From positions 16,006 to 38,605 of the forward strand of contig MHFL01000027.1 of the NCBI GenBank assembly GCA_001804165.1: a stretch of DNA of 22,600 nt, written 5' to 3'. The notes beneath the pieces are model-generated. The model did no database searches. It saw nothing but the letters and a program-made list of their open reading frames with translations, and was not told the origin of the DNA. Shown here one piece after another: positions 3 to 10,572 of this stretch. This DNA is from Omnitrophica bacterium RIFCSPLOWO2_01_FULL_45_10. Lineage in GTDB: Bacteria > Omnitrophota > Gorgyraeia > 2-01-FULL-45-10. The stretch's first letter is position 1; each line of letters opens with the position of its first letter. A program made the translations under genes and the position numbers.

Positions 3-245
3 GGGAAACTTGAGGGTTTTGACGAGGAGCATGGAAAGATTCAGGATATGATTAAAGGGATCGAGGCTGAGTATTTCACTTTTGAATATTGCTATAAAGA
101 ACCTGCCTCCGAGAGCGAATATGAGTATAGATGGAAAAATGTTTGGGACGATCCAAAAAAGATACCTCGCGGCGTTAAAGTCGCGATAGGTAAATTTAAA
201 AAAATTATATTGCTCCCTGCAGGCGAACTGATCGAAGAAAAATGA
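3..245 (+). CDS. Type II secretion pseudopilin GspJ-like, C-terminal part (5' end outside window)
   Basis: The reading frame is open from the first bases of the window to the TGA at 243-245, so only the last 80 residues of a longer protein are present. The visible part has the look of a GspJ minor pseudopilin C-terminus: an aromatic, acidic beta-rich stretch, a Trp-containing segment (RWKNVWDDP) followed by a 'P-R-G-V-K-V' strand, as in the 'lP.gv.v.l' strand of GspJ/PulJ, then a short hydrophobic tail. Position also supports it, because gspK follows with a 4-bp ATGA overlap and GspJ precedes GspK in most T2SS operons. GspJ would sit in the pseudopilus tip complex with GspI and GspK in the periplasm. 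An internal ATG at 48 is not taken as the start because the frame continues upstream. The exact pseudopilin type is inferred from context more than from the fragment. Confidence 0.6.
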   Translation, partial: GKLEGFDEEHGKIQDMIKGIEAEYFTFEYCYKEPASESEYEYRWKNVWDDPKKIPRGVKVAIGKFKKIILLPAGELIEEK

Positions 246-1282
246 GATTGAATAGGAACGGCACAATCCTGATGGCGTCTTTGTGGATATTGGCGATACT
301 CTCCATTTTGGCCGTCGGTATCGGATTTCGTGTCTCGTTGGAGCTGCGCCTATCCAGAGATAATATGGATCGGCTAAAAGCACTATATCTTGCCAAGGCG
401 GGTGTTGTCAAGGCACAGGAGCGGCTCTTTAAAGATACAAGCAATTATGATTCCATCTATGAATGCGGTATAACGTTATCTAGTGAGGAAAAGTCAGACC
501 CAGGGGAATTTAATGCTGTATTTAATGTATCATTAGGCGATGGGTCTTTCAGCGTAGGCTACAGCGAAAACGGGAAATCTTACATAGGTATGTCGGATGA
601 AGAGCGAAAGATTAATATAAATAAAATAGATATAGCGAATAAAAAAATATTAGAAAATATTTTGATTAATAGCGCAAAAGAAAGACCGCTGTCAGGGCCC
701 GAGGCATCTGAGATAGCCGCGTCAATTATTGATTGGCGGGATGAGGATGAGGAATTCTTAGACGGGGGTGCCGAAAAAGATTATTATCAATCGCTGGAGT
801 TTCCGTATGATTGTAAAAATGGCGATTTCAGCGCGATCGAGGAACTCTTGCTTGTTAAAGGAATGACGCGCGAAATTTTTAACGATTTAAAAGATTATGT
901 CACGGTAAATGGCGATGGGAAGGTTAATATGAATACCGCCTCTAATGAAGTTATGCATGCAGTCGCCGGGGCGATTCCGTTGATAGAAGATACGATCAAC
1001 GCAATCATCGTTTTTCGGAATGGCACCGATGGTATTCTAAGCACCCAGGACGATGGAATATTTGACAGTGGTAACATGACTACTATATTATCCCTCCCCG
1101 GCATTGGGCTAACGCCAGGAGAAATAACTAAGGTCACAAACTCCTTTACAACGACGTCGAATTATTTTAGAATTGAGTCTCGAGGCGTGGTAGAAAGGGC
1201 AAAGATGAAAAAGCGAATAATCTGCGTTGCAAAAAGAGGAACCGGAGAGAATTTAAAATTAATCTCTTATCGCGAACAATAG
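242..1282 (+). CDS. gspK: Type II secretion minor pseudopilin GspK
   Basis: This 346-residue protein has a short basic N-terminus, then a prepilin-like cleavage site (RNG followed by TILMASLW) and a hydrophobic helix at about residues 8-29. The residue at +5 after the cleavage site is not Glu, which is the known GspK peculiarity among pseudopilins. The large soluble domain has an inserted region and a helix-hairpin-helix-like motif (VNMNTASNEVM, about residues 228-238), matching the usual 'vNvNTA' signature of GspK. GspK caps the pseudopilus tip with GspI and GspJ in the periplasm. The start ATG overlaps the upstream gene's stop (ATGA), indicating translational coupling. Length is within the usual range for the family (about 300-350). 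Its 3' end may overlap the true start of the next gene. Confidence 0.9.
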   Translation: MRLNRNGTILMASLWILAILSILAVGIGFRVSLELRLSRDNMDRLKALYLAKAGVVKAQERLFKDTSNYDSIYECGITLSSEEKSDPGEFNAVFNVSLGDGSFSVGYSENGKSYIGMSDEERKININKIDIANKKILENILINSAKERPLSGPEASEIAASIIDWRDEDEEFLDGGAEKDYYQSLEFPYDCKNGDFSAIEELLLVKGMTREIFNDLKDYVTVNGDGKVNMNTASNEVMHAVAGAIPLIEDTINAIIVFRNGTDGILSTQDDGIFDSGNMTTILSLPGIGLTPGEITKVTNSFTTTSNYFRIESRGVVERAKMKKRIICVAKRGTGENLKLISYREQ

Positions 1283-2712
1283 ATATTGGGAAAAGTTTCT
1301 TCGACCTCGCGAAGACAGACGTCTCTTTAGAGATCGGCAAGTCGTTTGTGAAGGTCATTGAGACGAAGAAGGCAAAAGGGAAGAGGGAGATAACCCGACT
1401 GGCCAGCGTTAAACTATCTTCAGAAAAAGATGAAGATATCTCTCAAGAAATAAGAAAACTGTTTAAGTCCCAGAAGATCGTTTCAGCAAAGGTCCGCTTG
1501 AATCTTCCGCGGCATTTGGCCACCATTAGATTTTTGAGACTTCCATCCACAAATGATGAAGAGATAAAGAAGATGCTTAAAACAGAGTCTTTAAAATACC
1601 TTCCATATGCGGAGGAAGAGATCGCATACGGCCATCGGATACTCTCAAAAGGCGACGATGGTTATTCGAATGTGCTCTTGGCGATCGCGCAAGTTACCAC
1701 TTTAGATAGATTGCTCAGGCTTTTGAAAGGCGCTGACTTGAGCGCTGATTCGATTTCTATTGGCTCAGAAGGTTTATTTTTATGGTATCTTCTTAAAGCC
1801 CCGGACGAAGGCGTTCCAAAGGCCGTGATATTGGTCAATATAGATTCAGATTATATAGATATCGGCATAATAAATGATTCAACACTTGTTTTCACGAGAG
1901 GAATTCCATGCGATAATGTTAATTTGTTCAATCGAATGCAGGTCTTGGACGAGGTGAGGGTGTCGATCGCGGCATATCAGAAAGAATCGGCGGAAATAGT
2001 AGGCAAAATCATATTAACCGGAATCCGCGATAAGGTTAATACTTGCGAGGATTTATTTAAAAAGGCCATGAGGATACCGATCGAAGCGCGTGACCAGACT
2101 CAAGATACCGGTGTGGCTTGCGAGGCCGCAGGCCTAGATTCAGAATCGCCGTCATTTGCCGAATTGATAGGAAGCGCTTTATCATTCGAGAAATTGAAGG
2201 TCGATCTTTTACCATCAAATATCTCAGAAGAGATTCGCCTTAGGTCCTTGAAGAATGGTCTCGTCGTCACTTTAACGCTAACGGCACTGATAGGGGCCCT
2301 AGCATTAGCCGGAGTCATTAAGCATTTAGCCGACAAAAGGGTTTATCTGGCATATATCAATAAAGAATTAACGAGGATTGAGCCCAGGGTCAATCGCGCC
2401 AAAAAGATGATGGACGATATAAACATTGTCAAGGAAGAACTCGAGAAAAGGCCTTTAGCCATAGATATCTTAAGCGAGGTCTATAAGTTGACTCCGAACG
2501 GGATATCTTTGAATATGCTGGATTTCGAAAGGATGAAGGCGCTGGTTTTAAGAGGCCGAGCCGGCGCATTAAGTGAGATATTTAAATATATCGGTCTTTT
2601 GGAAGGCTCATCTTATTTCGAGAACGTGAGGGTGAAGTACGCGACAAAACGGGTAGTGGCGAATAGGGAAGCAGTCGATTTTGAGATAAGTTGTTCGTTA
2701 TCTAAACAGTAA
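1258..2712 (+). CDS. GspL/PilM-like actin-fold assembly protein with PilN-like C-terminal domain
   Basis: The N-terminal two thirds are the cytoplasmic PilM/GspL actin-like domain. One transmembrane helix follows (nt about 2257-2325), then a periplasmic PilN/GspL-like ferredoxin-fold segment ending at 2712. Such a protein links the secretion ATPase to the inner-membrane platform and partners the GspM-like product next door. The first conventional start in frame is GTG at 1348, but that would cut off the family's N-terminal phosphate-binding strand motif, which is present in frame just upstream (LEIGKSFVKVIE, nt 1333-1368). The frame stays open back to a stop near 1171-1176, with no ATG, GTG or TTG before 1348. 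The best candidate is ATT at 1258, eight bases after a GGAGAG ribosome binding site at 1244-1249, giving 484 residues and a 25-base overlap with gspK. Function is well supported; the start codon is an inference, and the fallback is 1348. Confidence 0.82.
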   Translation: MNLLSRTIDIGKSFFDLAKTDVSLEIGKSFVKVIETKKAKGKREITRLASVKLSSEKDEDISQEIRKLFKSQKIVSAKVRLNLPRHLATIRFLRLPSTNDEEIKKMLKTESLKYLPYAEEEIAYGHRILSKGDDGYSNVLLAIAQVTTLDRLLRLLKGADLSADSISIGSEGLFLWYLLKAPDEGVPKAVILVNIDSDYIDIGIINDSTLVFTRGIPCDNVNLFNRMQVLDEVRVSIAAYQKESAEIVGKIILTGIRDKVNTCEDLFKKAMRIPIEARDQTQDTGVACEAAGLDSESPSFAELIGSALSFEKLKVDLLPSNISEEIRLRSLKNGLVVTLTLTALIGALALAGVIKHLADKRVYLAYINKELTRIEPRVNRAKKMMDDINIVKEELEKRPLAIDILSEVYKLTPNGISLNMLDFERMKALVLRGRAGALSEIFKYIGLLEGSSYFENVRVKYATKRVVANREAVDFEISCSLSKQ

Positions 2713-2760
2713 ATAAATCATCAAGCCATATTGGCTCGAAACGAAAAGAGGCAGAGCAGG

Positions 2761-3297
2761 ATGTTCATACAGAATCTATCAAAACGTGAAAGGCGAATAG
2801 CGTTAACGACGATTGTTATCGCGGTGGTCGCGTTAACGCATAACTTTATTCTGGAGCCGATACGTGAACGTTGGATGCGTTTTGATGAAGAGATAGACTC
2901 AAAAGTTAATAGATTAAGAAAGAACACGGAAATAGTGTCGATATATAACCTGTTGGAGACAAGATACGAGAAATTATCCAAATATGCCAAATCTACAAAG
3001 AAAGAAGAAGAGGAGGTGGCGGCAATATTAAGCGAGATCGAGGCGATTTCCCGAACCAACTCCGCCGCAATAGAAAACATAAAACCTCTGGGCGTAAAAA
3101 ATAGGGGAACGTATAAAGAGGTCCTGATAGAAGCGTCTTTAGATGCCCAGATAAGCCAGTTATCGAAGTTTTTATATGATTTGGAAAATTCACAAAATAT
3201 GATAGTAAAGGTAAAACGTTTCACCTTATTCAGTAAGGCCAACCAGCCAAATATCCTCAAGTGTACATTGCTCGTCAGTAAATTGTTAATCGATTAA
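2761..3297 (+). CDS. GspM/PilO-like inner-membrane assembly protein
   Basis: From the ATG at 2761 this is 178 residues: a short cytoplasmic tail with the 'LSKRERR' motif typical of GspM just before the membrane, one transmembrane helix at about residues 12-30, a coiled-coil region at about 35-85 rich in Lys/Glu, and a C-terminal ferredoxin-like domain. This is the standard GspM/PilO layout, the partner of GspL/PilN in the inner-membrane platform. The ATG at 2761 is preferred because AGAGG (2747-2751) lies nine bases upstream. A TTG at 2731 in the same frame would add ten residues but has no ribosome binding site. Sequence conservation in this family is low, so the call rests on topology, the LSxRE motif and position after the gspL-like gene. 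Confidence 0.78.
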   Translation: MFIQNLSKRERRIALTTIVIAVVALTHNFILEPIRERWMRFDEEIDSKVNRLRKNTEIVSIYNLLETRYEKLSKYAKSTKKEEEEVAAILSEIEAISRTNSAAIENIKPLGVKNRGTYKEVLIEASLDAQISQLSKFLYDLENSQNMIVKVKRFTLFSKANQPNILKCTLLVSKLLID

Positions 3298-3453: not shown

Positions 3454-3687
3454 ATGGAATTTTACCTAGTAAAAGACTTATCTCGCCTTTCAGGCATCTC
3501 TATTTACACGCTAAAATATTATTTGAAGTTGGGGCTTTTAAGAGAGACGGGTAGAAGTCCTGAAACCAATTTCAGGTATTTTGACAACAGCACCCTCGAT
3601 AGATTGAAAAAGATAATAGAGTTTCGGCGTAACGATATATCTTTGGATAAGATACGCCAACTCATGGACGAAGGAAAGAATAGATGA
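3454..3687 (+). CDS. MerR-family DNA-binding protein, short form (77 aa)
   Basis: The product is 77 residues and consists almost only of a MerR-type winged helix-turn-helix. It has 'VKDLSRLSGISIYTLKYYLKLGLL' features spread over residues 6-29 (helix-turn-helix), followed by a wing with 'NFRYFDNSTLDRLKKI' and the beginning of the second helix pair ('DISLDKIRQLM'). The effector-binding and long dimerisation parts of classical MerR proteins are absent. It follows its own consensus promoter with an overlapping dyad, and its stop overlaps the start of the exeA-like gene (ATGA at 3684-3687), so the two are translationally coupled. This suggests local control of the secretion genes downstream. The ribosome binding site is weak: the purine-rich half-site AGAGAG lies 12 bases from the ATG. 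Confidence 0.88.
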   Translation: MEFYLVKDLSRLSGISIYTLKYYLKLGLLRETGRSPETNFRYFDNSTLDRLKKIIEFRRNDISLDKIRQLMDEGKNR

Positions 3688-4499
3688 GTTATTATGAGGA
3701 GATAGGATTGAAGACGGAACCTTTTTCTTCGAGTCCTGATCCCGCATTTTTTTACCGTTCGTCCGCCCATAACACGGCGCTTCAGAGGTTAGAGATCGCC
3801 ATCAGGTTGAAGCGGGGTTTAAGCCTCGTATTGGGAGACGTCGGAACGGGGAAGACCACAATGCTTAGGACGCTCGTTCAGAGTTTCGCGGATGATGATA
3901 AATTCACGTTTCATATGATACTTGACCCGTCTTACAAATCGGAATTCCAATTCCTCTCGAGCCTCGTCAAGATGTTCGGCGTGAAGCCGGATTCAAGATC
4001 CACTTTAAATTATAAAGACGAGATACAAAAATATTTGTTCAAAAAAGGGGTGGATGAGGACAAGACGGTCGTGCTTTTGATAGATGAAGGCCAGAAACTC
4101 TCCACGCCGTTCCTCGAGATTTTGAGAACCCTCTTAAATTACGAAACAAACGAGTATAAACTTCTTCAACTTGTGATAATCGCGCAGATGGAACTCCTGC
4201 CGCGCGTGAAGCGGCTCAAGAACTTTTACGACAGGATAATGCTGAAGTACATCATAAATCCCCTCGATGAAAGAGATACAAAAGAGATGATAGCATTTCG
4301 ACTCATGTCCGCCGGGCTCGACAGCTCCAGGCGCCTCTTTACAGATGGCGCCTTAAGGGTAATATTCGAATATTCTCAAGGATATCCCCGCAAGATTTCC
4401 ATCCTATGTCACGATAGCCTGGAAATGCTCGTCATGAACGGCGACTCGATGGTGGATGAGGGTATAGTTAGCGCCTGTATAAAGCGAGAGATAATTTAA
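3684..4499 (+). CDS. ExeA/GspA-type AAA+ ATPase
   Basis: This 271-residue protein starts with the family signature 'YYEEIGLKTEPFSSSPDPAFFY' (around residues 3-24). It has a Walker A (GDVGTGKT, 51-58), a Walker B (VVLLIDEGQ, 129-137) and a C-terminal AAA lid. This matches the cytoplasmic ATPase part of ExeA, which with ExeB helps insert the secretin through the peptidoglycan in Aeromonas. The transmembrane segment and peptidoglycan-binding domain of full-length ExeA are missing, so this is the cytoplasm-only form often found in T2SS and pilus loci. It is coupled to merR upstream and directly followed, without gap, by the gspC-like gene. Confidence 0.88.
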   Translation: MSYYEEIGLKTEPFSSSPDPAFFYRSSAHNTALQRLEIAIRLKRGLSLVLGDVGTGKTTMLRTLVQSFADDDKFTFHMILDPSYKSEFQFLSSLVKMFGVKPDSRSTLNYKDEIQKYLFKKGVDEDKTVVLLIDEGQKLSTPFLEILRTLLNYETNEYKLLQLVIIAQMELLPRVKRLKNFYDRIMLKYIINPLDERDTKEMIAFRLMSAGLDSSRRLFTDGALRVIFEYSQGYPRKISILCHDSLEMLVMNGDSMVDEGIVSACIKREII

Positions 4500-5201
4500 A
4501 TGCACAAAGACACGTCGCCGGAGGAGAGGCTCTTAGCCCTGATAAAGGGAAGACATAAAAAGCCCAAAGATAAGGGCATAAGAGATACGGCTCTGGATGA
4601 GAGCCGCCAAAATGCGAATGAAATGCCCGAAGCGACCCAGCCGGAGCCAAAGAGAGCCGGTAGCAAATCTTACATTTTAGAGATACTCAGATTTCCATTA
4701 TTCAAGAAGAGGCTCTTTGACCCCGTCGTTTTAAGGATTATCAATAAGTATTTGGCAATTATTTTTATACTTTCAATTGGATATTTATTTTTTGCTCTTC
4801 TCTTTATAAAACCCAATAAAAATTTTCAACTTCTCATATCCCAAATGCCACGCCAAAAGTCGACCTTAAGAGAAGCCGAAGAGGTCGTTCTGGACACGAA
4901 GGATTACGCGTCATATTCGTCAGAGATAAGCGGCAAGAGATTATTCAGCCCTACTATAGAAGAAAACATCACCGCCTCACCTAAGGGGACTCAAACCCCC
5001 GAAGAGGACATGTCGGGCAATCTCATCTTGGTAGGCATAATACAGGGAGATAATCCTCAGGCCGTCATAGAGGATAAGAAAAGCCAGAAGACATACTACT
5101 TGAGCGTGAACCAGTCTTTTAACGGGTTCACGATAGAGGAGATTACCGCAGGCAAAGTCATATTGGACTATGGCGGTAGAAAGATAACGCTCGTATTATG
5201 A
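4500..5201 (+). CDS. GspC-like inner-membrane secretion protein
   Basis: The 233-residue product has a long polar cytoplasmic N-terminus (1-80), one transmembrane helix (about 84-103), a linker, and a C-terminal domain at about 173-233. That domain has the homology-region pattern of GspC: 'LVGIIQGDNPQAVIED' then 'KTYYLSV' and a final short strand. GspC connects the inner-membrane platform to the N0 domain of the secretin, which fits its place immediately before gspD. There is no PDZ domain at the C-terminus, so it resembles the short GspC/PilP-like type. The ATG follows the previous stop directly (TAAATG). GspC is the best match, but a PilP-like name would be defensible. Confidence 0.75.
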   Translation: MHKDTSPEERLLALIKGRHKKPKDKGIRDTALDESRQNANEMPEATQPEPKRAGSKSYILEILRFPLFKKRLFDPVVLRIINKYLAIIFILSIGYLFFALLFIKPNKNFQLLISQMPRQKSTLREAEEVVLDTKDYASYSSEISGKRLFSPTIEENITASPKGTQTPEEDMSGNLILVGIIQGDNPQAVIEDKKSQKTYYLSVNQSFNGFTIEEITAGKVILDYGGRKITLVL

Positions 5202-5223
5202 GTATGAACAAAAGAGGTGAGAG

Positions 5224-7188
5224 ATGAAGAGAATCCATTCTTTAATGTTTATCGCAATTTTCTTTCTTTGCATTGCCGTAACCTTTGTATTTGCCGAAGA
5301 GGCCCTTATTACGAATATCGAACAGCCGGCAGGCCTTGAAGAGAATAAGATATCCTTAGATCTAAAAGGCATGGATGTGGTAGAGGTCGTAAAGATGCTC
5401 GCCACGAAAGGAAACCTGAACGTCGTTATCTCCAGCGACGTGAAGGGCCGCGTCACGATATTTTTGAAGAGCGTCGATATCATGGATGCCTTCGAGATAA
5501 TCCTCATCGCTAATAACCTTGCATACGATAAGCGCGGCGACATCATCTACGTGATGAGCCAAAGGGATTATGAGGCGATATACGGAGAGAGGTATGCCGA
5601 GAAGAAGGCAGCGAAGATATTTCAACTTAAATATGCCAAGGCGAGCGAAGTCTCGAAGGCGCTGAACCAGATAAAGACGAGAATAGGAAAAGTCATAGTG
5701 GATGAGGGCTCAAACACGATTGTAGCCATTGATAACCCCGGGGCCTTAGAGCAGATAACCGATACGGTCGATAAGTTGGATGTGCGCACTGTAACCAAGA
5801 TATTCGAACTTAAATACGCCAAGGCAGCCGATTTGAAGACGAAGATCTCTGAGGTGCTGACCAAAGGTGTAGGCGCCGTTCAGATGGACGAAAGGACGAA
5901 CAAGATTATCGTCATGGACCTGGAGAAAAGGATGCCTGAGATAAGCCAGATGGTGAAGGCCTTTGATGATAAATTACAACAGGTTCTCATAGAAGCGAAG
6001 ATAATTCAGATAACGTTGGACGATAAATATAAACTGGGGGTTGACTGGGAGCAGGTTCTTCACAAACTGGAGAAGGAGATCAGTATAAAAAGCACATTCG
6101 AACTTGCTGCGAAGAATGCGTTTACGCCCGGAGCGCAGGTCGTGATAGGCACGCTCGGCTCCGCTACAGATTACGCCGCGATGGTGCAGGCATTGAAAAC
6201 CATTGGAGATACAAATCTTCTCTCGAGCCCGAGGATAACGGCGTTGAACAATCAAGAAGCGAAGATACTGGTAGGCACATCCCAGCCCTACGCCAGCAAC
6301 ACCGTAACCCAGGGCACATCTACCACGACGACCGCGACATCTCTTAATTTTATAGATGTGGGAGTGAAACTTTATGTCACTCCAACGATCAATAAGGATA
6401 ACTTCGTCACTATGAAGATAAAACCGGAGGTGAGCTCCGTATCCGGCACTTATACGTATGGTAGTCCATCGACAACGGTTCCGATAGTATCAACGACACA
6501 GGCCGAAACGAGCGTTACAGTAAAAGACGGGATAACGATAATCATAGCCGGATTGATAAAAGACGAAAGGACAAGCACGGTTGATAAGGTTCCGATACTA
6601 GGTGATATACCTATAATAGGGCATGCATTCAGAAAGACGGACAAGGAGATAAAGAAACAGGAATTGGTGGTATTTTTAACCCCTCACGTCGTAAGCGGCG
6701 AAAGCGATTATCTGGAACAACCCCAAACAGCGCCGATAGGAGAGAGACAATTCACCGTGCCAGAGACCCTCGTATTCGAAAGAAGAAAACGAGAGGATAT
6801 GAAACCGGGCTACTTTAAGCAAAAGAGGAGAAAGATGTTCGAGAAGGCGCCAAAAGAAGAGGAAATACAAAAGAAGGGAGCATTGGTGAAGACAGTCATT
6901 CCTGCAACGCCGGCGGAATATTACTATGTTATAAAAGAAAGAATAGTTGAAAATATAGAATTCCCGAAGGGCGCTAAAGCCGCTCCCCTTAAGGGAGAGG
7001 TGAGAATAGCGTTCTCTTTGTCTAGATCCGGAGAGTTGGTGGATTCGCCTGAGATTCTTGGCTCTTCCAATAATGATTTGGACTTACCATCCATAAACGC
7101 CGTAAAAAAAGCGAGCCCTTTCCCTGAATTTCCGGAATCTATCGGACAGGACGAAAAACGCTTTATAGTTAATTTAATTTTCGAGTAG
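5224..7188 (+). CDS. gspD: Secretin GspD with C-terminal TonB-like domain
   Basis: A signal peptide (about 1-24) is followed by an N0 domain (about 45-111), an N1 domain (about 130-187), an N2-like repeat (about 192-249) and the secretin core (about 255-490), including the signature 'VPILGDIPIIGHAFR' (456-470). The protein forms the multimeric outer-membrane channel of the secretion machine. It then has a basic linker (about 500-560) and a domain at about 565-654 with TonB C-terminal features: a 'GEVRIAFSLSRSGEL' strand pair, 'SSNNDLD', and 'AVKKASPFPEFP' before a last beta strand. That extension is not part of standard GspD and seems to be a fusion. The N1 and N2-like domains share 'KIFxLKYAKA', a clear internal duplication. 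The ribosome binding site GAGGTGAGAG is strong. The start is unambiguous. Confidence 0.93.
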   Translation: MKRIHSLMFIAIFFLCIAVTFVFAEEALITNIEQPAGLEENKISLDLKGMDVVEVVKMLATKGNLNVVISSDVKGRVTIFLKSVDIMDAFEIILIANNLAYDKRGDIIYVMSQRDYEAIYGERYAEKKAAKIFQLKYAKASEVSKALNQIKTRIGKVIVDEGSNTIVAIDNPGALEQITDTVDKLDVRTVTKIFELKYAKAADLKTKISEVLTKGVGAVQMDERTNKIIVMDLEKRMPEISQMVKAFDDKLQQVLIEAKIIQITLDDKYKLGVDWEQVLHKLEKEISIKSTFELAAKNAFTPGAQVVIGTLGSATDYAAMVQALKTIGDTNLLSSPRITALNNQEAKILVGTSQPYASNTVTQGTSTTTTATSLNFIDVGVKLYVTPTINKDNFVTMKIKPEVSSVSGTYTYGSPSTTVPIVSTTQAETSVTVKDGITIIIAGLIKDERTSTVDKVPILGDIPIIGHAFRKTDKEIKKQELVVFLTPHVVSGESDYLEQPQTAPIGERQFTVPETLVFERRKREDMKPGYFKQKRRKMFEKAPKEEEIQKKGALVKTVIPATPAEYYYVIKERIVENIEFPKGAKAAPLKGEVRIAFSLSRSGELVDSPEILGSSNNDLDLPSINAVKKASPFPEFPESIGQDEKRFIVNLIFE

Positions 7189-7216
7189 ACAGCCTCTCTT
7201 GAAAGGAGGGAGAAAA

Positions 7217-7750
7217 GTGCAAAAAAATCTAAACATTTTCCTAACCATTTTTTTCGTAACGAGCATAGTCCTTTTGTGCACGTCCCTGGTATTATATACA
7301 TTAAAGGAGAACGAGGAAGAAAAAAAGATAGCCCTTCAGAAAACTCTCGACGAAGTTATTAAGGCCAAAGAGTCGCTCGAAGGCAAATCAAAAAATTTAG
7401 AGGTCGCGAGCGCGGAATTAAAAGCGACCATCAAGTCTCATGAAGACAGGATAAGCGCATTGGCTCGGTCCCAAGAAGAAGAGCGGGCAAAATCCGATGA
7501 CTATCTTGCCAAGATGAAGCAGGGCGAGATGGAGATAAAAACTTTAAAATCGAGACTTGAGGAAGAGGGTTTAGAAAAAGAAGAATTGTTAAAACGTCTC
7601 AATGCAGTGAATGAGGAGCGCCTCAACCTTAAATTTCACCTGGAAACATTGCTCAAGACAAAGGAGGAACTGGAGAAGAAGGCGAAAGAACTCGCCGAAA
7701 AGGAAGATATCTCATTAGGCACAATCGTCATCAAACAACCCCCGAAGTAG
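7217..7750 (+). CDS. Membrane-anchored coiled-coil protein, function unknown
   Basis: From the GTG at 7217 this is 177 residues: a hydrophobic helix at about residues 5-25, then an almost continuous Glu/Lys/Leu-rich coiled coil to about residue 165, and a short Pro-containing tail. GTG 7217 is chosen because AAGGAGG (7203-7209) stands seven bases upstream. The longer frame from a TTG at 7199 would contain that ribosome binding site in its own coding sequence. The gene lies 28 bases after gspD and has the same strand, so it is probably the last gene of the secretion unit. I do not recognise a family. It could scaffold or space the secretion complex in the periplasm, but that is speculation from topology and position. 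Confidence 0.75.
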   Translation: MQKNLNIFLTIFFVTSIVLLCTSLVLYTLKENEEEKKIALQKTLDEVIKAKESLEGKSKNLEVASAELKATIKSHEDRISALARSQEEERAKSDDYLAKMKQGEMEIKTLKSRLEEEGLEKEELLKRLNAVNEERLNLKFHLETLLKTKEELEKKAKELAEKEDISLGTIVIKQPPK

Positions 7751-8409: not shown

Positions 8410-8452
8410 TAGTAGCGCACCTTTAAAGGTGCGCTACTATTGTGGATAACTT
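8410..8452 (+). repeat. REP hairpin, left copy
   Basis: A perfect 30-bp palindrome is centred on TTTAAA, with stem TAGTAGCGCACC. It is preceded by GTAG repeats and followed by TGTGGATAACTT. It starts five bases after the stop of the receiver gene and may also act as a transcript 3'-end hairpin, though it has no U-tract. Confidence 0.85.
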
Positions 8453-8934
8453 CAATAGTTTAGATGGTCGATTGCCAGCGCGCTTTTATTATTACCGAAA
8501 TACCAATGATAGCTTGAATGAGGGTAGTCCCCCAGTGAACCAACCAGCTTTTTACGAAGAGGGTTGTTATGTATATATTCTATTTTTTGCATCAGCATTG
8601 CCGCGTCTCTTATTCCCTCATCATAAAAACGTTTTTGCCAAATCTTACCGTTTTTATCTCTTATCTTATTAATTTTTCTAGAGAAGCTTCCTTTTATCAT
8701 CTGCATGATATATGAAAGATTGTATTTTCCAACCGGCTGAATGATAAAATGAACATGATCTGGCATCACGCAGTAAGCAAATATTTTATAGTCCAGCAGC
8801 AGTTTGAAATATTCCATGGTAATCAACATAATATCGCACATCTTCGCATTAAGAAAAATAGGTTCTCTTTCGTAAGTAATGCTGGTTACGAAATATGGGT
8901 AGCCTTTTTCAAAGTATCTTCTCATATATGCCAT
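8452..8934 (-). CDS. REP-associated tyrosine transposase (RAYT, Y1_Tnp family)
   Basis: This 160-residue IS200-like transposase has the HUH motif 'MPDHVHFI' (His60 and His62) and the family pattern 'IWQKRFYDEGIRD' (98-110). The likely catalytic Tyr120 is in 'EYIHNNP', and 'YPHSSYHWY' lies near the end. These enzymes cut and join single-stranded DNA at REP hairpins with a 5' tetranucleotide such as GTAG. Both flanks of the gene carry such hairpins, so it is probably a resident RAYT acting on this REP family. The start at 8934 is chosen because GGAG lies seven bases upstream. The longer frame from 8955 starts inside the right-hand hairpin. All expected catalytic residues are visible, so the enzyme appears intact. 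Confidence 0.93.
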   Translation of the reverse strand: MAYMRRYFEKGYPYFVTSITYEREPIFLNAKMCDIMLITMEYFKLLLDYKIFAYCVMPDHVHFIIQPVGKYNLSYIMQMIKGSFSRKINKIRDKNGKIWQKRFYDEGIRDAAMLMQKIEYIHNNPLRKKLVGSLGDYPHSSYHWYFGNNKSALAIDHLNY

Positions 8935-8952
8935 AAAATATCTCCATAGTAT

Positions 8953-8996
8953 CATAGTAGCGCACCCTTAAGGGTGCGCTACTATGTGGATAACTT
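8953..8996 (+). repeat. REP hairpin, right copy
   Basis: A 34-bp perfect palindrome is centred on TTAA, with stem ATAGTAGCGCACCCTT. Its right edge runs into TGTGGATAACTT (8985-8996). It differs from the left copy by compensated changes in the loop-proximal pairs (CTTTAAAG versus CCCTTAAGGG), which keep the pairing. This indicates that the structure is under selection or was copied recently. Confidence 0.85.
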
Positions 8997-9017: not shown

Positions 9018-9042
9018 TAACCTGGTTAGATTTGTCAGGTTA
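9018..9042 (-). terminator. Weak hairpin at the comM 3' end
   Basis: TAACCTG (9018-9024) pairs with CAGGTTA (9036-9042), which includes the comM stop codon. No run of U follows on the minus strand, so it may be a transcript-end stabiliser or mean nothing. Confidence 0.25.
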
Positions 9043-10572
9043 CGACCAGAGGTTGCGGTCGAGGCTCCTGTATGAGATCGCTTCGGAGATGTGATGGGAT
9101 TCGATAGTCTCTTTAGAGTCCAGGTCCGTTATCGTCCGCGCGACCTTGAGAATCTTGTCGTAGGCCCTTGCTGAAATCCCAAGTTCGAGGATAGCCAACT
9201 TTAGTAACTCCTCGCCCTCCTTATCCAGGACGCAATATTTTTCCAACTCCTTCGACTCTAAATGAGCGTTGAAATGTATGCCTTCTCTTTTATATCTCTC
9301 CTTCTGTCTCTCGCGTGCCATATTAACGCGTTTACGTATCTCCTCCGATGGTTCGCCGCGCCGCCTTGCTGTCAGGTTCTCGACATTGAGTCTCGGGACG
9401 TCAAGGTGGATGTCGATCCTGTCGAGCAAAGGGCCCGATATCTTGGAAAGATATGTCTGTATCTGAAACGGCGTACAGTGGCATTGTCTCTTCGGGTCCG
9501 TGAAATATCCGCACGGGCAAGGGTTCATGGCGGCGACGAGCATGAATTTAGACGGATATGTCAGTCTGTTCGCGACTCTCGCTATTGTGATTGAGCCTTC
9601 TTCTATCGGCTGTCTCATGACTTCCAAAACGTTTCTTTTAAATTCGGGAAGTTCGTCTAAAAACAAAACGCCGTTATGCGCCAGACTTATCTCCCCCGGA
9701 GAAGGATTCGTGCCTCCGCCGACCAAAGCGGCGTCAGAAATGGTATGGTGCGGCGACCTAAAGGGCCGAGTCGCGATAAGCCCTTTGTTCGGCGAAAGCA
9801 GTCCCGCGACACTGTGAATCTTCGTCGTTTCAAGACTTTCCTCGAGTGTCATCTCGGAAAGTACAGTGGGAAGACGCTTTGCCAACATGCTTTTGCCGGA
9901 ACCGGGAGGCCCGATCAAAAGGACGTTGTGGCCGCCTGAGGCGGCAATCTCCAAACCGCGCTTAACATGCTCCTGTCCTTTTACATCGTTAAAATCTATC
10001 CTGTAAATTGACCTTTTTTTGAATGTCTCTTTAAGAGAAGAACGCTCTATCTGTAATTGTTTCTTTTTATTTATAAAATCAACGACCTCCCTTAAGGTTT
10101 CCGCTGGATATATCTCTATTCTTTCAGCCACGGATGCCTCTTTCGAGTTTTCTTTCGGAAGGACGAACTTCGCTTTGTTCATATTTCTTAATCCAAGCGC
10201 TATCGGCAATGCCCCTTTGATCGGTTTCAGTTTTCCGTCGAGCGAGAGTTCACCCAAGAAGACAGTATCGTGTAGGTCGGGATAATCGAGCACACCCTCG
10301 AACGACAATATCGAAAGCGCGATGGGAAGATCAAACGACGCGCCTTCCTTTTTGATGTCTGCCGGAGCCAAATTTATCGTTATCTTCTTTGACGGAAATG
10401 AGTAATCGGAATTCTTTATCGCGGACTTTATCCTATCTCGAGACTCCTTTATGGCCGCGTCGGGTAAGCCGACAATATTGAAGCCAGGCAAACCGCCTCC
10501 TATATCAGTCTCTACTGTAACTTCATACGCGTCTACGCCTATTACACTGCTTGAATATATCTTTGACACCAT
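9040..10572 (-). CDS. comM: YifB/ComM-family Mg-chelatase-like AAA+ ATPase
   Basis: The product has 510 residues, the usual length for ComM. An N-terminal Lon-protease-like fold domain (1-170) has the conserved 'GLPDAAIKESRDRI' and 'NLAPADIKKEG'. The AAA+ Mg-chelatase domain has Walker A GPPGSGKS (221-228), Walker B near 'VLFLDELPEF', a 'PCPCGYFTDPKRQCHC' cysteine cluster around residue 353, and a C-terminal lid. In Vibrio ComM is a hexameric helicase that extends recombination branches during natural transformation; outside competent species its role is less clear. It is the last gene of the spoVG-yraN-comM unit. The gap to yraN is 14 bases and contains AAGGAGAA before the ATG. Confidence 0.95.
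   Translation of the reverse strand: MVSKIYSSSVIGVDAYEVTVETDIGGGLPGFNIVGLPDAAIKESRDRIKSAIKNSDYSFPSKKITINLAPADIKKEGASFDLPIALSILSFEGVLDYPDLHDTVFLGELSLDGKLKPIKGALPIALGLRNMNKAKFVLPKENSKEASVAERIEIYPAETLREVVDFINKKKQLQIERSSLKETFKKRSIYRIDFNDVKGQEHVKRGLEIAASGGHNVLLIGPPGSGKSMLAKRLPTVLSEMTLEESLETTKIHSVAGLLSPNKGLIATRPFRSPHHTISDAALVGGGTNPSPGEISLAHNGVLFLDELPEFKRNVLEVMRQPIEEGSITIARVANRLTYPSKFMLVAAMNPCPCGYFTDPKRQCHCTPFQIQTYLSKISGPLLDRIDIHLDVPRLNVENLTARRRGEPSEEIRKRVNMARERQKERYKREGIHFNAHLESKELEKYCVLDKEGEELLKLAILELGISARAYDKILKVARTITDLDSKETIESHHISEAISYRSLDRNLWS

Follow-up and report, generated by a model that had tools for sequence, protein, structure and literature searches.

The analysis confirmed that residues 558–654, the C-terminal end of the secretin encoded in the window (the whole stretch of DNA analyzed here, 22,600 nucleotides), form a genuine domain of the TonB family. 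The gene is part of a type II secretion operon, and a tail of the same kind was found on a second family of secretins, those of the Tad type. In our estimate, chances are about even that this tail is a docking module serving to concentrate, position or hold the secretin within outer membrane and cell wall. The coordinates of all features are collected in Table 1.

Table 1. Features of the secretin, its operon and related loci. Positions without a locus name refer to the window.
Feature	Position	Strand	Basis or remark
gspK-like minor pseudopilin	242..1282	+	above Pfam cut-off, below NCBIfam cut-off
gspL-like, PilM and PilN fused	1348..2712	+	above Pfam cut-off, below NCBIfam cut-off
gspM/PilO-like	2731..3297	+	above Pfam cut-off, below NCBIfam cut-off
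MerR-type DNA-binding protein, 77 residues	3454-3687		PF13411; within the operon; overlaps the 5′ end of the next gene (AAA ATPase)
AAA ATPase, GspA/ExeA-like type	3684..4499	+	AAA the only domain found; hydrophobic segment absent
gspC-like	4500..5201	+	one hydrophobic segment and T2SSC domain; above Pfam cut-off, below NCBIfam cut-off
Secretin gene, 654 aa	5224..7188	+	signal peptide, N0-N1-N2, secretin core, linker, TonB-family domain
N0 region, residues 42-112	5347..5559	+	STN and GspD N0 profiles match below cut-offs
N1 and N2 ring domains, residues 129-249	5608..5970	+	Secretin_N
Secretin core, residues 253-490	5980..6693	+	PF00263 over residues 323-490, 172.8 bits
Flexible linker, residues 491-557	6694..6894	+	low pLDDT, low identity among orthologues
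TonB-family C-terminal domain, residues 558-654	6895..7185	+	profiles, model, fold matches
SPFPEFP motif, residues 631-637	7114..7134	+	form in common with free Omnitrophota TonBs
Small protein directly 3′ of the secretin	7199..7750	+	N-terminal hydrophobic segment, coiled-coil look
IS200-like (Y1) transposase domain protein	8452-8955	-	domain match
Mg-chelatase family protein	9040-10572	-	domain match
Tad secretin (RcpA/CpaC type), TonB_C end	L045:5806-7440
Tad secretin (RcpA/CpaC type), TonB_C end	L046:6020-7603
Tad secretin (RcpA/CpaC type), TonB_C end	L047:6241-7809
Tad secretin (RcpA/CpaC type), TonB_C end	L048:8448-10004
Tad secretin (RcpA/CpaC type), TonB_C end	L049:195-2054
btuR/cobO and free tonB, 3′ of the tailed secretin of G089	L136:4439-7712

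Domain organization of the secretin

Matches of the full protein to the Pfam profiles PF00263 (172.8 bits) and PF03958 (84.5 bits) assign the gene product to the secretins. The GspD equivalog TIGR02517 and the PilQ profile TIGR02515 were not reached (270.3 against a cut-off of 351.35 and 268.6 against 284.35, respectively). The initial annotation had placed the end of the core near residue 490, which is exactly where the PF00263 match ends, and had described a basic linker behind it. A linker is present, but its basic character is weak (16 K/R against 12 D/E); prolines make up five of its 67 residues. In the model of the secretin, pLDDT was below 50 at residues 492–557, and the mean pairwise identity of the linker among 14 orthologues was 25%. 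A linker modeled with such low confidence would let the tail domain wander. Hydrophobic windows of 19 residues were confined to residues 1–95 (i.e. the signal peptide and N0 region), and the same scan found no hydrophobic segment in the tail. Window position 6907 corresponds to residue 562, and the stop codon ends at position 7188.

The TonB-like domain that had been read by eye behind the core was borne out by sequence profiles and by its predicted structure. On the full-length protein, PF13103 (TonB_2) matched residues 564–648 with 28.3 bits (cut-off 22) and PF03544 (TonB_C) matched residues 577–638 with 27.4 bits (cut-off 24.6); on the C-terminal 152 residues alone, the scores were 31.4 and 30.4 bits, respectively. 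TIGR01352 remained narrowly under its cut-off of 27.1 on the full protein (26.6) and passed it on the C-terminal fragment (29.6). The tolA_full profile gave 16.9 bits on the secretin (cut-off 59.45). A single-sequence search of a large protein set with the tail returned the query and one relative only, so that alignments were required. Using a profile of 14 orthologous tails, TonB chains of the PDB were reached, the best being 6sly (E 9.1e-8), which the structure listing gives as Helicobacter pylori TonB. The AlphaFold2 model of the tail, based on a 39-row tail alignment (mean pLDDT 91.9, pTM 0.82), has the order helix-strand-strand-helix-strand, and its closest solved structures were the C-terminal domains of TonB and TolA. 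The highest Z values were those of TolA domain III (2x9a, 10.7; 1lr0, 10.6), with a tie with TonB at 10.1; these matches were read from Foldseek and VIA lists, and families missing there are not counted as excluded. The model thus has the TonB/TolA fold. Neither of the two results that, according to the initial annotation, would have told against its reading (no TonB_C match, or another fold) was obtained.

Compared with the TonB C-terminal domain (PF03544, PF13103, TIGR01352; H. pylori 6sly and 5lw8), the tail is alike in profile scores, fold and its extreme C-terminal position. It differs in that its carrier is a secretin instead of a TonB anchored in the inner membrane, and in that the linker ahead of it is not proline-rich. 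The best-conserved columns of the tail alignment are G, P, F and Y; since such columns are often fold-making, a binding site is not visible in the tail.

Distribution of tailed secretins

Secretins with this tail, which the initial annotation suggested looking for in related genomes, were found in at least 14 of 38 genomes, the own genome included (30 loci inspected, one best per genome). They also accounted for 53 of the 80 named loci, i.e. those kept from GTDB genomes; the other 27 had no full tail. Among these 27, the reading frames of L166 and L168 end within the start of the tail, which reflects either decay or an assembly error. Protein-search matches were named Candidatus Omnitrophota, and the tail profile was positive in all of the best 120 of 3702 (7998 candidates scored). 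The tail profile, which also detects free TonBs, matched 242 of 285 genomes of the phylum, and among the matches listed (to about E 3e-16) at least 58 genomes had a match within an open frame of at least 430 codons; the sequence ahead of the tail was inspected in the best 30 loci of this search. One row used to build the tail profile (L015) gave no Pfam TonB match at 0.01.

On a tree of the secretin core, tail presence required 9 changes, compared to 16.0 in shuffles (0 of 500 as low); the tree held 65 rows, window included, after 16 of 80 had been dropped because the end-of-core pattern failed. A trait clustered in this way fits an old gain followed by several losses, without proving it.

Five secretins of 519–620 residues with the Tad N-terminal domain PF13629 and PF00263 likewise have TonB_C at their end; with 34 to 61 bits, they score higher in PF03544 than the window secretin. 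In L045, the gene sits between RcpC/CpaB and a fused ParA-T2SSE ATPase, which we take to be CpaE-CpaF-like; RcpC/CpaB also accompanies the secretin in L048. PF03544 was present in all of the best 120 of 1610 matches to a Tad secretin profile. This profile matched 66 of 146 genomes at E 1e-60, the own genome not being among them, and 62 of the 66 rows reached the end of the tail; those of G168, G041, G131 and G091 stop at 399–428 of 526. Omnitrophota members of the RcpA/CpaC type thus share the TonB_C end but belong to another secretin family and have a shorter linker (median 25 residues in 100 of the 120 proteins, against 65 in 46 GspD-type proteins; both samples were restricted by sequence patterns and different tail profiles were used). 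With the tail on a second secretin family, its role seems suited to secretins generally rather than to one substrate.

The sole other phylum surveyed was that of genome G297, from which locus L203 comes (record name, Elusimicrobia). In 99 genomes of this phylum, the GspD profile had matches in 46, none of those listed extending past 528 of 647; the Tad profile had matches in 93, none of those listed extending past 442 of 526 (the tail start at most). Two loci from records named Planctomycetales (L160 and L215) fell among the Omnitrophota matches. L160 is tailed, and a Tad-type match over the full length was obtained in the genome to which L215 belongs; their Planctomycetales names may be erroneous.

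Origin and selection of the tail

Derivation of the tail from TonB is well supported. In G167, a genome of the same class, an exbB-exbD-tonB cluster encodes a free TonB that shares 44% identity with the window tail. The form of the SPFPEFP motif, which was chosen after viewing the sequences, occurred in 33 of 39 GspD-type tails and 21 of 22 free Omnitrophota TonBs, as against 2 of 25 Tad tails. In a domain tree with few columns and a bootstrap that had not settled, GspD tails and Tad tails formed separate clades (99/94 and 99/95) with free TonBs between them, and the ExbBD-linked TonB of G167 grouped beside the Tad tails (93/90, not starred). A single joint clade of both kinds of tail was not rejected by the AU test (p 0.319). 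We consider it likely that the GspD and Tad tails represent two separate fusions.

Mean pairwise identity was 32.5% for the tail and 55.0% for the core. In seven pairs, which stem from three groups of loci and are therefore non-independent, dN/dS amounted to 0.059–0.205 for the tail, 0.048–0.141 for the core and 0.124–0.487 for the linker; only eight pairs passed the end-of-core pattern and the required core identity of at least 80%, and the eighth was saturated. Values of the tail close to those of the core, together with higher ones for the linker, point to a maintained domain on a looser tether, and indicate that the tail is under purifying selection. These low ratios, as well as the recurrence of this fusion across dozens of genomes that stem from different projects, contradict the notion of a functionless passenger domain or an assembly artefact, to which we give hardly any credence although the tail is absent or broken in 27 of the 80 named loci.

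The type II secretion operon

Upstream of the window, gspE (630.9; cut-off 630.25) and gspG (140.5; cut-off 88.85) scored above their NCBIfam cut-offs and gspF below (390.9; cut-off 424), and H-, I- and J-like pseudopilins gave weak matches. The combination of gspE, gspF and gspG with gspC, gspK, gspL and gspM identifies a type II secretion operon. The Mg-chelatase family protein farther downstream is presumably ComM-like. N-domains, core and operon resemble those of GspDs with S-domain and pilotin (EpsD/ExeD; PMC6532946), but the present secretin adds a linker and a TonB-family domain at its C-terminal end. The ExeA/ExeB and OutB accessory factors likewise involve a gene for an AAA ATPase next to gspC-gspD, and ExeB has been called TonB-like (PMC4098917, PMC9239104); in the window, it is the secretin that bears the TonB domain, and the ATPase is without membrane and wall-binding parts. 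The latter does not have the full make-up of ExeA/GspA, an AAA domain with a membrane segment and a wall-binding domain: it has AAA as its only domain, a TIGR03015 score of 167.8 against 324.5 and no hydrophobic segment, and no wall-binding domain was found in it with Pfam. GspAs without a periplasmic region have been described, according to part of PMC9239104.

The order AAA-gspC-secretin was kept in seven of nine loci of tailed relatives; L050 has no ATPase, and L051 begins too close to the contig end to tell the order. Identity in seven tailed loci was 62–80% for the ATPase, at most 72% for the secretin and at most 45% for gspC. Within flanks of at most 2.5 kb, which make these counts lower bounds, an AAA gene was found beside 34 of 53 tailed and 18 of 27 untailed secretins, and gspC beside 47 and 20, respectively. 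No marked association of the tail with either gene was therefore apparent. As untailed loci have these neighbours too, the tail is not essential to the operon and has no obvious partner there. Relatives of the small protein directly downstream of the secretin occurred in 12 of the 80 named loci, all of them tailed. A 340-residue protein with a lipoprotein-like start (judged by eye) lies just 3′ of the secretin in L196; it was found in four loci, all untailed, and is a possible alternative helper for untailed secretins.

Candidate partners in the cell envelope

In the sections used of PMC6532946 and PMC9239104, the C-terminal S-domain of GspD is part of the membrane-binding region, and bound pilotins staple the external barrel. 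The initial annotation had located the tail at the periplasmic base of the channel; from the position of the S-domain in solved GspDs, we infer that it starts near the outer membrane instead. Possibly, the tail stands in for the S-domain helix: an outer-membrane lipoprotein bearing a TonB-box-like strand would be recruited by it and would pilot the subunits to that membrane. The location of the tail where the S-domain lies in other GspDs (PMC6532946, in part) and its occurrence on two secretin types agree with such a route. Nevertheless, we regard it as unlikely: a full tail is missing from 27 of the 80 named loci, the largest downstream family confined to tailed secretins (12 loci; among the 12 largest families) is not lipoprotein-like, and the one lipoprotein-like family (by eye; L196 and three others) adjoins untailed secretins.

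Wall attachment of type II secretins differs among bacteria, and Legionella LspD itself has a SPOR-like domain (part of PMC9239104). As cited there, LspD shares with the present secretin an extra built-in domain, but that of LspD is SPOR-like and N-terminal, not TonB-family and C-terminal. Peptidoglycan binding, by which the tail would fix the secretin in the sacculus, was hypothesised for TonB C-terminal domains from modelling (cited in a portion of PMC9008036), and it would match the wall-binding parts that other secretins carry or recruit (PMC9239104, in extract) as well as the want of such a part in the ExeA-like ATPase. It is a rather unlikely role for the tail, to which no wall-binding Pfam profile matches and which is slightly acidic (11 K/R, 15 D/E).

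ExbD, for which the initial annotation had suggested looking, was found in 37 of the 38 genomes searched, so that its presence does not discriminate. Two ExbD genes are present in the own genome; the neighbour of one is an ExbB confirmed by profile, and that of the other is an ORF resembling ExbB by eye. The periplasmic domains of TonB and of ExbD have been reported to be in contact (PMC9008036, in part), and ExbD or an ExbBD-driven TonB could contact the tail and work the gate or assembly of the secretin by proton-motive force. This we hold to be improbable. The nearest ExbD (C27:56714) is 33 kb from the secretin (C27:21229-23190) on the same contig and outside the operon, and the secretin has neither the anchor in its tail nor the exbB/exbD neighbours of a TonB energy transducer. 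The C-terminal domain is, moreover, the output end of TonB, namely that which binds the receptor (from the part consulted of PMC9008036). Since the tail has no hydrophobic segment and corresponds to this receptor-binding end, coupling to ExbB/ExbD is the weakest of the three roles offered initially, after pilotin replacement and peptidoglycan binding. Just as improbable is the broader idea that Omnitrophota made the output domain of TonB a general part of secretins in two channel families, with proton-driven ExbB/ExbD acting on a ring of tethered TonB domains and so helping to assemble or open the channel; if it were true, the secretin would be powered from the inner membrane.

TonB-dependent receptors and TolB are the usual binding partners of TonB and TolA domains. 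The own free TonB, which the tail profile detects, scored 17.7 bits with PF03544 (under the cut-off) and gave no match at 0.01 in another search. It lies near a TonB-dependent receptor (L043:3522-4139 and 5021-6988). Docking of the tail to such receptors or to TolB, which the partners of TonB and TolA domains and this receptor might suggest, is disfavoured and very improbable. The Plug domain was not found in the tailed genomes G008 (92% complete), G010 (97%) and G019 (93%), nor in the Tad-tailed G033 (93%), and TolB_N was not found in 38 genomes with a profile that was positive in 3 of 14 controls; these genomes are incomplete and divergent families can escape detection. The likeness to TolA domain III (2x9a, 1lr0), which gave the highest Z, accordingly extends to the fold but not to a detected TolB_N.

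In G089, a free tonB located 0.5 kb from the tailed secretin was considered as a partner and rejected. The intervening gene is BtuR/CobO, so this tonB is probably a B12-uptake neighbour.

Proposed role of the tail

The docking module proposed at the outset is suggested by three features of known systems: strand addition by TonB, the pilotin site on the S-domain, and the variety of factors that fix secretins in the wall. Solved GspDs have 15 subunits per ring. Each subunit would bear one tethered TonB-family domain just beneath the outer membrane. The tail domain would bind a peptide strand or a surface of another envelope component, as TonB does; a TonB-dependent receptor or TolB is not required as its partner. 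Such binding could do the job done elsewhere by pilotins, GspA/GspB, a SPOR-like domain or other accessory parts. Beta-augmentation is the binding mode of TonB C-terminal domains, according to part of PMC6699858. For the TonB-like ExeB of Aeromonas, binding to a strand of the secretin N0 domain in the way TonB binds receptors has been hypothesised (PMC4098917, in part).

Implications for Omnitrophota

The routes by which secretins arrive at the outer membrane and cross the wall vary from one bacterium to another and are known mainly from work on a few Proteobacteria. No description of a secretin fused to a TonB C-terminal domain was found among the open papers listed, as judged by titles and opening lines, and the main text of the Omnitrophota genome paper discusses RcpA and Tad and has no occurrence of 'TonB' (PMC10066038, in the portion used). 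Database names of such proteins include 'TonB family protein', so the match has already been noticed by annotation pipelines. As far as these searches show, a TonB-family domain in two secretin families of one phylum is an unreported solution, and the fusion suggests an undescribed way to dock export channels in the cell envelope. Being a small soluble domain of 97 residues, the tail allows direct fishing for its partner. The Tad pilus and type 4a pili of Omnitrophota have been discussed as pointing to a predatory or symbiotic way of life (PMC10066038, in part), and the tail of the Tad secretins may therefore matter for the attachment of these tiny cells.
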